DNA from: Pseudomonas fluorescens NCIMB 11764 | Lineage (GTDB): Bacteria; Pseudomonadota; Gammaproteobacteria; Pseudomonadales; Pseudomonadaceae | Assembly (NCBI RefSeq): GCF_000293885.2 | Contig: NZ_CP010945.1 | Coordinates: 2,004,001-2,068,000, forward strand | DNA: 64,000 bases | Direction of reading: 5' to 3' | In this document: positions 19,215 through 25,423 of the stretch, piece by piece | How positions within the stretch are numbered: position 1 is the stretch's first letter | Layout of the letters: the number at the start of each line of letters is the position of its first letter | Position numbers and translations under genes: made by a program | The notes under the pieces: generated by a model | What the model saw: the letters and a program-made list of their open reading frames with translations, nothing else | The model's database searches: none | What the model was told of the DNA's origin: nothing

Positions 19215-20954
19215 TCAATTAATGGTCTTGATGCGGCCAATCACGGAGCCGGCTTCAAAATAGTCACCGGCCTGTTTGGCGATCTGCACCTGACCTTCAC
19301 AAGGTGCCAGGACCGAGGTTTCCATTTTCATGGCTTCTACAACCGCGATCACTTGCCCGACGCTCACCGACTCGCCGTCTTCGACGACCCAGGTATGCAG
19401 ATTCCCCGCTACGGGTGTCAGTACCGCCTGAGGATCAGAGACCTCGGAGGCGGCCGTGCTTTCGCTGACGGTGTCCGCTGCGTTCAGGCTGACGCCTCGC
19501 AGCAGCGCAGCCGGAAGGCCGAGTTCGTGGCGCTTGCCGTCGATCTCGACAAACGTGCGCAGGATGCCAGGGTCGGCCGATACAACGGCACGGGGGGCGA
19601 GAGTGATCTGTTCGGCGAAATCGGTCTCGATCCAGCGCGTGTGTACGGCGAATGTATCGGCACCGGTGAAGTCGTCATGATCCATCACGGCTCGGTGGAA
19701 CGGCAGCACCGAGGCGATGCCCTCAATGTTGAACTCAGCCAGCGCGCGCCGGGCGCGGACGATGGCCTGTTCGCGGGTGGCGCCGGTGACGATCAGTTTG
19801 GCCATCATCGAATCGAAGGTACTGGGCACTCGCGAGCCGCTTATCACGCCGCTGTCCAGACGCACCCCCGGGCCAGACGGTGGCAGGAAATCAGTGATGT
19901 GACCGGGAGTGGGCAGGAAGCCCTTGCCCGGGTCTTCCGCGTTGATGCGAAATTCGAAGCTGTGGCCACGCGGGGTCGGCGTCTCACTGAAGGACAACGG
20001 GAAACCGTCGGCGATTCGCAGTTGTTCGATCACCAGATCGACCCCAGTGGTCTCTTCGGTCACCGGGTGCTCGACCTGCAAACGGGTATTGACCTCAAGG
20101 AACGACAGGGTGCCATCCTGGCTCAGCAGGAACTCCACCGTGCCTGCACCGACATAGCCGGCTTTGGCGCAGATATCCTGCGCAGATTGATGAATACGCT
20201 GGCGCTGTTCGTCGCTGATAAAGGGCGCTGGCGCTTCCTCCACCAGCTTCTGATTGCGCCGCTGCAAGGAGCAGTCCCGCGTGCCGACGACGACGACCTT
20301 GCCGTGCTTGTCGGCGAGGATCTGCGCTTCGATGTGCCGAGGACGGTCGAGGAACTGTTCGACATAGCATTCGCCACGACCAAAGGCTGCTTCCGCTTCG
20401 CGCACGGCGGAGGCGAACAATTCAGCCACTTCATCCATGCGCCAGGCGACTTTCATGCCGCGTCCGCCGCCGCCAAAGGCCGCCTTGATGGCAATTGGCA
20501 GGCCATGCTGTTCGGCAAAGGCCAGTACTTCGGCGGCGCTTTCGACCGGGCCAGGCGTACCGGCCACCAGAGGCGCACCGACCAGTTGGGCAATTTTCCG
20601 CGCCTCGACCTTGTCGCCGAGCACGTCGATGGTCTCCGGGTTGGGACCGACCCAGATCAACCCTGCGTCGATCACCGCCCGGGCGAAGTCGGCCCGTTCA
20701 GACAAAAAACCATAGCCGGGGTGCACGGCATCGGCGCCGCTGCGTTTGGCGACGGCGATCAGTTTGCCGATATCCAGGTAGGTCTCGGCCGGGCGCTGGC
20801 CATTCAGTGAGTAGGCTTCGTCGGCTTGGCGCACATGCAGGGCGTCGATGTCCGCGTCGGCATAGACCGCGACAGACTGCACGCCGTAGTCGCGGCAGGC
20901 GCGGGCGATGCGGACGGCAATTTCACCACGGTTGGCAATCAGTAATTTTTTCAT
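19215..20954 (-). CDS. Biotin carboxylase fused to a biotin carrier domain
   Basis: 579 residues. Residues 1-~450 form a complete biotin carboxylase: ATP-grasp loop GGGGRGMK, the EVNTRLQVEHPVTE metal/biotin site and the C-terminal lid. A linker leads to a biotinyl domain with K543 in the EAMKMET motif. This AccA1-like architecture usually serves an acyl-CoA carboxylase or, next to KipA/KipI-type proteins, a urea-carboxylase-like enzyme. Its start overlaps the stop of the KipI-KipA fusion by four bases (ATGA), so the two are probably made together. No separate acyl-CoA carboxyltransferase is nearby. Confidence 0.93.
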   Translation of the reverse strand: MKKLLIANRGEIAVRIARACRDYGVQSVAVYADADIDALHVRQADEAYSLNGQRPAETYLDIGKLIAVAKRSGADAVHPGYGFLSERADFARAVIDAGLIWVGPNPETIDVLGDKVEARKIAQLVGAPLVAGTPGPVESAAEVLAFAEQHGLPIAIKAAFGGGGRGMKVAWRMDEVAELFASAVREAEAAFGRGECYVEQFLDRPRHIEAQILADKHGKVVVVGTRDCSLQRRNQKLVEEAPAPFISDEQRQRIHQSAQDICAKAGYVGAGTVEFLLSQDGTLSFLEVNTRLQVEHPVTEETTGVDLVIEQLRIADGFPLSFSETPTPRGHSFEFRINAEDPGKGFLPTPGHITDFLPPSGPGVRLDSGVISGSRVPSTFDSMMAKLIVTGATREQAIVRARRALAEFNIEGIASVLPFHRAVMDHDDFTGADTFAVHTRWIETDFAEQITLAPRAVVSADPGILRTFVEIDGKRHELGLPAALLRGVSLNAADTVSESTAASEVSDPQAVLTPVAGNLHTWVVEDGESVSVGQVIAVVEAMKMETSVLAPCEGQVQIAKQAGDYFEAGSVIGRIKTIN

Positions 20955-24181: not shown

Positions 24182-25423
24182 TCAGACGACGTTGAGGAAG
24201 GCAAAGATCGGCCCGACGGATTTGATTGCCATGTACCAGGTCAGCATGCAGGTCAGGGCGCCCAGCACCAGGAGCCAGCGTGGGTAATGGTAACCGTCCA
24301 TGAGGTCGGATCGGCGCCAGCCGACGTAGATGAAGATGCTCAGGCCGATTGGCAATATCAGGCCGTTGAAACCGCCTGCGAAGAGCAGCAGTGCGGCAGG
24401 AGCAGTACCCATCAGGACAAAGATCAGCAGCGATAGGGCGATGAACACTGTGGTGGCGCGGTTGCGCCCCTGCTCAGTGATGTTCGGCTTGAACACGGTG
24501 ATAAAGGAGATGGAGGTGTAAGCGGCGCCGATCACGCTGGTGATACTGGCGGCCCAGAGGATGAGACCGAAGACGCGCAGGCCGATCTGCCCGGCCGCTG
24601 CCTGGAAGGCTTGTGCGGCCGGATTGGCGCCTTGACCCGAGGTGTCGATGATTACGCCGCTGGCAACCACGCCGAGGATGGCGAGAAACAGGATGTAGCG
24701 CATGAGGCCGGTGACCAGGATGCCGCTCAGGGCTGCTTTGGTCACTGCCTGGAGATTTTCAACCCCGGTAGTACCGCGATCCAGCAGTTTGTGAGCCCCC
24801 GCATAGGTGATGTAACCACCCACCGTACCTCCGACAATGGTGGTAATGGTGGCGAAGTTGATCTGGTCCGGAAGAACGGTCTGGTAGAGGGCTTCACCCA
24901 GTGGCGGGTTGGAGGCAAAGGCTACGAACAGCGTCAGGCCAATCATCACCAGGCCCAGCACGACGATCAGCCGGTCGACCGCCAATCCGGCGCGGTGGGA
25001 GAGGAAGATGCCGATGGCCAGCAGGGCGCTCAGACTGCCGCCCCATTTTGCATCAAGCCCCAGCAGCGCGTTCAGACCCAGCCCGGCACCGGCGATGTTG
25101 CCGACGTTGAATACCAGCCCGCCGAAGATCACCAGCACCGCTAGCAGGTAACCACTGCCTGGAATCGCTTTGTTGGCCACATCTGCGGCACGCATTCGGG
25201 TCAGGGAGACGATACGCCATACGTTAAGTTGAACCACGAAGTCGATCAGAATCGACGCCAGGATACCGAACGCAAATGCCGCCCCCATCTTGGCTGTGAA
25301 CGTGGCGGTCTGGGTGATGAATCCAGGACCGATGGCAGAAGTCGCCATCATGAAAATCGCGGCGATCAAAGAAGCGCGCCGAGCTTTTGTAAACTCTTGA
25401 GTGGTCTGTGTCACGGCATCCAC
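24182..25423 (-). CDS. NRAMP-like membrane carrier (YcsG type) without metal-site motifs
   Basis: 413 residues with about eleven transmembrane segments of the NRAMP/LeuT fold. The first helix reads SAIGPGF where metal carriers have DPGN, and no MPH motif occurs in the helix-6 region (TVGGYITYAGAHK). This argues against manganese or iron transport. In Bacillus the related ycsG lies with ycsF, ycsI and kipIA, so uptake of 5-oxoproline or a similar compound is plausible. The start at GTG 25423 was chosen because AGGA lies eight bases upstream; an in-frame TTG at 25474 is a weaker alternative. Confidence 0.85.
   Translation of the reverse strand: MDAVTQTTQEFTKARRASLIAAIFMMATSAIGPGFITQTATFTAKMGAAFAFGILASILIDFVVQLNVWRIVSLTRMRAADVANKAIPGSGYLLAVLVIFGGLVFNVGNIAGAGLGLNALLGLDAKWGGSLSALLAIGIFLSHRAGLAVDRLIVVLGLVMIGLTLFVAFASNPPLGEALYQTVLPDQINFATITTIVGGTVGGYITYAGAHKLLDRGTTGVENLQAVTKAALSGILVTGLMRYILFLAILGVVASGVIIDTSGQGANPAAQAFQAAAGQIGLRVFGLILWAASITSVIGAAYTSISFITVFKPNITEQGRNRATTVFIALSLLIFVLMGTAPAALLLFAGGFNGLILPIGLSIFIYVGWRRSDLMDGYHYPRWLLVLGALTCMLTWYMAIKSVGPIFAFLNVV

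Follow-up and report, generated by a model that had tools for sequence, protein, structure and literature searches.

The window analysed here, a stretch of 64,000 nucleotides of Pseudomonas fluorescens NCIMB 11764 (NZ_CP010945.1, positions 2,004,001-2,068,000; coordinates below follow window numbering), carries a minus-strand operon of five genes encoding an NRAMP-like carrier, PxpA, a DUF1445 protein, a fusion of PxpB with PxpC (PxpBC) and a protein that joins a biotin carboxylase (BC) with a biotin carboxyl carrier protein (BCCP). This operon probably specifies a biotin-dependent 5-oxoprolinase, in which BC-BCCP together with PxpBC would carboxylate 5-oxoproline and PxpA would open the activated ring. 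Comparison of sequences gives good support for the complex of the two large proteins and for the substrate, while the carboxylation chemistry is what we infer from it. The parts are ordinary; their combination appears to represent a distinct, conserved 5-oxoprolinase, probably dependent on biotin.

All five genes lie at the site given in the preliminary description and have strong matches to Pfam and NCBIfam profiles; the order proposed there (carrier, PxpA, DUF1445, PxpBC fusion, and BC-BCCP coupled to the latter by ATGA) is confirmed by coordinates and family assignments, a second ATGA overlap being present at the PxpA/DUF1445 junction. BC, BCCP, CT_A_B and CT_C_D domains of urea carboxylase are all found, spread over two proteins, and the claim that PxpBC and BC-BCCP jointly hold every domain of that enzyme is thus borne out by Pfam. 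The biotinyl lysine is placed at residue 543 of BC-BCCP by an AMKM motif. The equivalog model of single-chain urea carboxylase, TIGR02712, yields 518.8 and 167.7 bits, far below its cut-off of 1303.85. PxpA, PxpB and PxpC are encoded together and all exceed their Pfam cut-offs; PxpA also surpasses the threshold of NCBIfam subfamily NF003814 (388.1 bits, cut-off 226), and the family model TIGR00724 is matched within the operon (242.7 bits, cut-off 230.2). The equivalog models of PxpABC are all missed (178 bits of 500 for PxpC, 131.8 of 145.55 for PxpB, and at best 283.4 of 337 for PxpA).

The adjacency of PxpBC and BC-BCCP is no chance neighbourhood. The window and the rows having fused BC-BCCP make one clade of 15 in an 85-row PxpC tree (SH-aLRT 100, stem 1.04), all 15 members of which possess BC-BCCP, and in a joint PxpB and PxpC tree (170 rows, fast method) the clade comprises 17 rows with support 100, BC-BCCP being adjacent in 17 of 17. 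These rows span gammaproteobacterial and alphaproteobacterial loci and an Arthrobacter plasmid, the BC-BCCP gene adjoining pxpBC in every proteobacterial member sampled. The tree of BC proteins returns a matching clade, again of 17 rows with support 100. Over the 170-row tree the presence or absence of BC amounts to 12 changes, other BC groups occurring among haloarchaea and their bacterial kin, Bacillota, Desulfobacterota-like bacteria and alphaproteobacteria.

A physical counterpart of this linkage exists in mycobacteria. Among solved structures AccA3 matches the whole BC-BCCP best, its homology being full-length (713.9 bits, residues 2-576). AccA3 also groups within the BC clade of the window (18 rows, support 100) and shares 67.8% identity with the window BC, whereas the genome's five other BCs reach 42-48%. 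Among the PDB entries containing the AccA3 sequence is 9YX5, known here from its title and chain names: a long chain acyl-CoA carboxylase complex of Mycobacterium smegmatis with MSMEG_0435-MSMEG_0436 bound (released 2025-11-26). Its chain V, called allophanate hydrolase subunit 2, matches PxpC and its chain W, called subunit 1, matches PxpB, and MSMEG_0435/0436 fall inside the window clades of PxpC and PxpB (18 rows each, SH-aLRT 100; trees of 85 and 82 rows, with all 33 BC rows and 46 of the 136 others). The contact expected from the clade is therefore already deposited for its mycobacterial members. Together with the 17/17 adjacency and the matching clades, this makes the split urea-carboxylase-like enzyme suggested in the preliminary description well supported and very probable. 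PxpBC of some Actinobacteria may use a shared AccA3-like subunit. Our literature searches turned up no paper for 9YX5 and none on a biotin-dependent PxpABC.

Pyroglutamyl-peptidase, the product of pcp, frees 5-oxoproline. In a Comamonadaceae locus of the window clade (L199; loci and genomes of the samples are denoted by L and G numbers) the genes for DUF969, DUF979, pyroglutamyl-peptidase I, PxpA, PxpBC and BC-BCCP follow each other, all families being confirmed, with a GntR gene facing away, and L047 shows the identical run. A screen of 190 loci and the window found the pcp-DUF969-DUF979 cassette, full or partial, beside PxpA in ten BC-less loci as well (L040-L044, L048, L054, L055, L061 and L118), eight of them with pcp itself; two Embleya loci also carry it, whole or in part. 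Since the pyroglutamyl-peptidase cassette stands beside both, the BC-linked and the BC-less types are each tied to 5-oxoproline. The best solved match of the porin encoded next to the operon is the pyroglutamate porin OpdO (537.7 and 537.2 bits against 456.8 for the next porin), and in Pseudomonas aeruginosa PA14 the locus tag of OpdO is next to that of a LamB/YcsF gene and the expression of both drops together, as a passage of PMC6327441 reports. In Corynebacterium glutamicum the NRAMP-like PxpT is needed for growth on 5-oxoproline and the GntR-type PxpR binds this compound (passages of PMC13274462); by analogy, the window carrier is a probable candidate for 5-oxoproline uptake and the product of the divergent GntR gene a probable candidate for a sensor like PxpR. 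Of the 17 other clade loci, 16 from the 170-row tree plus L199, 13 hold a relative of this regulator (L011, L012, L014, L025, L038, L047, L051, L058, L071, L092, L101, L183 and L199), and L013, L036, L076 and L189 lack one. With pcp in two related operons, the porin type, the carrier and the GntR gene pointing in one direction, 5-oxoproline as substrate is well supported from sequence; the family name of the DUF1445 protein suggests that the D form might matter too.

The organization of the locus is summarized in Table 1. The longest frame of the carrier begins with TTG at 25474, an internal GTG at 25423 being an equally possible start. Inverted repeats looked for in the gap between the GntR and carrier genes were not found. 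Directly past the GntR gene lies a transfer-messenger RNA gene (26442-26835; tag ANDETYGEYALAA).

Table 1. Genes of the operon and its flanks, in window coordinates
Feature	Position	Strand	Family evidence and remarks
GntR-family regulator (GntR + FCD)	25679..26344	+	Pfam; divergent from operon
NRAMP-like carrier, PxpT/YcsG type	24182..25474	-	Nramp 67.1 bits (Pfam)
PxpA (LamB/YcsF), 27.24 kDa	23383..24153	-	349 bits (Pfam); predicted, probable ring-opening hydrolase
DUF1445 / D-Glu_cyclase family, named 'putative hydro-lyase'	22580..23386	-	Pfam 231.2 bits; NF003969 418.2 bits
PxpB-PxpC fusion (CT_C_D + CT_A_B), 56.91 kDa	20951..22570	-	carboxyltransferase half; GTG start
BC-BCCP, AccA3 type, 62.05 kDa	19215..20954	-	Biotin_carb_N + CPSase_L_D2 + Biotin_carb_C + Biotin_lipoyl
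OprD-family porin	17819..19060	-	OprD 487.8 bits; 154 nt after BC gene, same strand; putative operon member

In the P. fluorescens genome CT_A_B is encoded by two genes, namely the operon PxpBC and a urea carboxylase (open frame of 1241 aa; reading frame from ATG of 1213 aa). The genome contains six biotin carboxylase C-domains and five Carboxyl_trans matches, two full-length and three partial, the full-length genes being no more than some 5 kb away from two other BCs; an orphan full-length acyl-CoA carboxyltransferase that might serve BC-BCCP was not found in the genome. Because the other CT_A_B protein is urea carboxylase and the full-length Carboxyl_trans genes adjoin other BCs, PxpBC is the only evident partner of BC-BCCP. 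There is one copy of PxpA and no match above cut-off to Hydantoinase_A, the domain of HyuA/OPLAH-type oxoprolinases, which leaves the operon as the only 5-oxoprolinase candidate found in the genome. A Hydantoinase_A hit of 21.5 bits inside the window (frame 43193-45115) is below cut-off, reads as DnaK and was rejected as HyuA.

BC accompanies pxp genes in part of the loci sampled. PxpA is present in 124 of 299 Pseudomonadota genomes, and 80 regions, none longer than 20 kb (76 from as many other genera and four more from Pseudomonas), were subjected to domain calling with profiles built for this analysis. In 15 of them BC and PxpC are no more than 6 kb apart (ten with fused BC-BCCP, five with separate BCCP); the remainder comprises a single locus with BC at 9.5 kb (L095, outside the window clade of the PxpC tree), 57 with PxpC and no BC, and seven lacking PxpC. 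On plasmids, where 12 loci were taken out of 60 listed and 601 matching records, BC accompanies pxp genes in eight (Pseudomonas, Aureimonas, Sinorhizobium, Arthrobacter, Lactiplantibacillus, two haloarchaea and Bradyrhizobium) and no BC was seen in four (Azospirillum oryzae, Thermus, Agrobacterium vitis, which has BCCP only, and Pseudonocardia). A search with Thermococcus-type PxpB gave BC near PxpC in five of 80 named loci (L138, L142, L152, L156 and L173), many contigs being short. The window type occurs in 15 of 99 Pseudomonas genomes; a wider sample includes 12 genomes with it, nine having a single PxpA and three (G043, G253 and G198) two or three, and Hydantoinase_A over cut-off is absent from eight of 11 of them (G198 outside the 11). 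Mutual exclusion of the two PxpBC types within the genus was considered and is weakened by congeners that carry both.

Several side observations belong to this survey. PxpA without PxpC in the region was noted in L040, L045, L059, L066, L069, L079 and L096, the PxpA proteins of L045 and L066 being window-like by score (354 and 348 bits). Rhizobial pxp operons include two proteins named as biotin/lipoyl or BCCP (L020 4359-5280; L021 6573-6998), and L020, having BCCP and no BC in the locus, hints at BC supplied from elsewhere. In the P. aeruginosa plasmid L011 (4352-6970) the homologue of the NRAMP carrier is interrupted, an IS5-family transposase separating its two pieces. The Tsukamurella plasmid L198 (7326-8885) encodes GntR, an MFS carrier and a PxpBC fusion of the window clade. 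DUF969 and DUF979 travel with pyroglutamyl-peptidase and PxpA (L199 3991-5737 and the ten BC-less loci), and we would guess that the two may together act as a carrier of 5-oxoproline or of pyroglutamyl peptides.

Residues in PxpBC also distinguish the window type. Its clade differs from BC-less rows at three positions in PxpB and at nine in PxpC: members have Phe at 157 (Tyr in Arthrobacter), Trp at 180 and Pro at 483, the urea carboxylase of the same genome (one row) has Tyr, Trp and Pro, and Gln, Phe and Gln prevail among BC-less rows. In a set of 169 rows BC accompanies 22 of 24 with an aromatic residue at 157 and 11 of 145 with other residues (L186 is counted as BC though its BC is cut by the contig end). 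The 24 aromatic rows are essentially two clades, and this origin, along with the 11 BC-linked rows that are not aromatic, weakens the idea of a strict residue code for biotin use. Trp180 is retained in five of five actinobacterial relatives (L195-L198 and L200), Pro483 in four of the four scored and Tyr157 in three. A second PxpBC group combines Phe157 with Lys138, which stands where urea carboxylase has its general base, and has BC near PxpC in five of seven loci (L018, L019, L067, L068 and L190 with BC; L185 and L188 without); a further lactam enzyme that depends on biotin may be encoded there. BC-linked and BC-less rows have in common the invariant columns of PxpA, which we take to be the active site, and those of PxpBC.

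If these features are combined into a reaction scheme, the BC domain would carboxylate biotin on the BCCP domain with ATP and bicarbonate, as follows from the family, the domains and biotin motif being present. Carboxybiotin would then swing to PxpBC, where 5-oxoproline would receive the carboxyl group on its lactam, the ring nitrogen being the most likely site, and the activated ring would be hydrolysed by PxpA to N-carboxyglutamate, which would lose CO2 to give glutamate. The net conversion would be 5-oxoproline + ATP + water to glutamate + ADP + Pi with bicarbonate recycled, uptake and sensing presumably being provided by the carrier, the porin and the GntR gene.

The classical 5-oxoprolinase of Pseudomonas putida offers a biochemical point of reference. 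According to a passage of PMC8453981, component A shows oxoproline-dependent ATPase activity and is built as a hexamer of dimers, with subunits of 64 and 51 kDa, and component B is of 82 kDa. The window proteins measure 62.05 (BC-BCCP), 56.91 (PxpBC) and 27.24 kDa (PxpA; three copies make 81.7), and because of these masses component A can be read as BC-BCCP with PxpBC, and an oligomer of PxpA can be seen in component B. Consumption of ATP by component A alone in the presence of 5-oxoproline would be explained by carboxylation, since an N-carboxylactam can decarboxylate.

A number of observations weigh against a biotin-dependent 5-oxoprolinase. At least six of the 15 window-type congeners have a second, distant PxpC, at least five having none; pcp is found in only two of 18 clade loci (L199 and L047); and no relative of the window porin occurs in the other 190 loci screened. 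L198, which falls with the MSMEG proteins in an enlarged clade of 20 rows (support 90 to 93), has neither BC nor PxpA in its locus. The 16.8 kb loci of all five actinobacterial relatives contain no BC, and position 157 is Gln in L197 and Cys in L198. Eleven BC-linked rows of the residue survey lack an aromatic 157, and the column of K1605 of Kluyveromyces lactis KlUA, the general base of the urea carboxylase carboxyltransferase (passage of PMC5770610), aligns with Arg138 in the window clade, as in most BC-less PxpB. The 51 kDa subunit of component A is lighter than the 56.9 kDa fusion. The contact in 9YX5 could be regulatory. Finally, PxpABC probably exists without biotin. Among 30 genomes with PxpB/PxpC loci, chosen from the 80 loci of the Thermococcus-type search, Biotin_carb_C was detected in ten and missing from 20, and Biotin_carb_N is missing from the same 20, being found in one BC-positive control genome. 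All 20 BC-less genomes are metagenome-assembled by title, with completeness not given, while seven of seven isolate genomes have BC; because of this the absence of BC rests on agreement within groups (11 Thermococci-type, four Synergistota and two Treponema). Biotin as a universal need of PxpABC is on these grounds rejected for now. One might envisage a single subunit set serving two activation chemistries, biotin-dependent in the window clade, in mycobacterial PxpBC with AccA3 and probably in the archaeal K-type group, and biotin-independent in lineages devoid of any biotin carboxylase, component A of P. putida being an unrecognised biotin carboxylase; we regard this wider scheme as tentative, at slightly less than an even chance.

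The strongest competing explanation is that PxpBC phosphorylates 5-oxoproline directly and BC-BCCP provides stability, regulation or a bicarbonate-linked side role. Phosphorylation by PxpBC is an assumption stated as such in PMC13274462 (passage cited), co-purified PxpB and PxpC hydrolyse ATP according to a statement in PMC8453981, and an 18O study cited there is titled as dealing with a phosphorylated tetrahedral intermediate, this being known from the title, with the enzyme source unchecked; the last two points add to those against the biotin-dependent reaction. The 20 of 30 genomes that show no BC, and the invariant PxpA and PxpBC columns common to BC-linked and BC-less rows, are likewise in keeping with direct phosphorylation. 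We nevertheless hold it to be unlikely for the window, considering the 17/17 linkage and matching clades with a complete BC-BCCP, the mycobacterial complex 9YX5, and the residues at 157 and 483, which are as in urea carboxylase.

Less probable still, and in our estimation distinctly so, is that the same split carboxylase acts on another lactam, hydantoin, ureide or amide. The preliminary description had raised such a substrate as a possibility, and the long divergence of the clade from BC-less PxpBC (stem 1.04), the co-occurrence of both PxpBC types in some genomes and a ring-opening amidohydrolase and allophanate hydrolase near L011 would agree with it. This idea is disfavoured by the pcp cassette, found beside BC-less operons and with BC-linked PxpBC in L199 and L047, by the OpdO-like porin, by the PxpA columns shared with BC-less PxpA, and by the single PxpA and the lack of any other 5-oxoprolinase candidate in the genome, with Hydantoinase_A over cut-off missing there and from eight of 11 window-type genomes. 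That BC-BCCP is the alpha subunit of an acyl-CoA carboxylase, its place in the operon being incidental, can be put aside as very improbable: AccA3, its closest solved relative, does serve acyl-CoA carboxylases (passage of PMC11001197), but the 17/17 linkage is to PxpBC, and the distant carboxyltransferase that the preliminary description named as a refuting case has no orphan full-length representative in the genome, although a shared one could play this part.

Coupling of ATP to ring opening in the prokaryotic 5-oxoprolinase is stated as an assumption in a passage of PMC13274462. Should the biotin-dependent reaction proposed here be true, a lactam would join the substrates of urea carboxylase-family carboxyltransferases, genes would be proposed for the classical two-component enzyme, a function would be suggested for the PxpBC contact in the mycobacterial carboxylase structure, and the question of kinase or carboxylase would become testable.

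The operon can be compared with four known systems. Urea carboxylase (UC/UA of K. lactis and the 1213 aa protein of the same genome) has in common with it BC, BCCP and CT_A_B/CT_C_D and, in the row from the same genome, an aromatic 157, Trp180 and Pro483, and its action followed by that of allophanate hydrolase parallels the proposed carboxylation followed by the PxpA step; the window enzyme differs in being split over two proteins, in PxpA replacing allophanate hydrolase, in Arg standing for the catalytic Lys and in several further invariant columns of PxpBC that are PxpC-like. PxpABC of Escherichia coli, Bacillus subtilis and C. glutamicum shares PxpA, PxpB, PxpC and the invariant PxpA columns, and the carrier and GntR regulator of C. 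glutamicum pxpTABC are laid out as in the window (passage of PMC13274462); no BC is described for PxpABC in the passages cited here, and that of E. coli lacks an operonic one, whereas that of the window is operonic and its PxpBC forms a separate clade with urea-carboxylase-like 157 and 483. The P. putida enzyme of Seddon, Li and Meister resembles it in that two large subunits make up component A and coupling is the task of a distinct component; its smaller-subunit mass agrees only roughly, and the cited passages link no sequence to it. In the M. smegmatis complex the PxpB and PxpC chains are separate and AccA3 is shared with acyl-CoA carboxylases, whereas the window has a fused PxpBC and a BC-BCCP of its own; yet both partners are clade-mates of the window proteins, and the deposited entry joins proteins of the PxpBC and BC-BCCP types in one physical complex.

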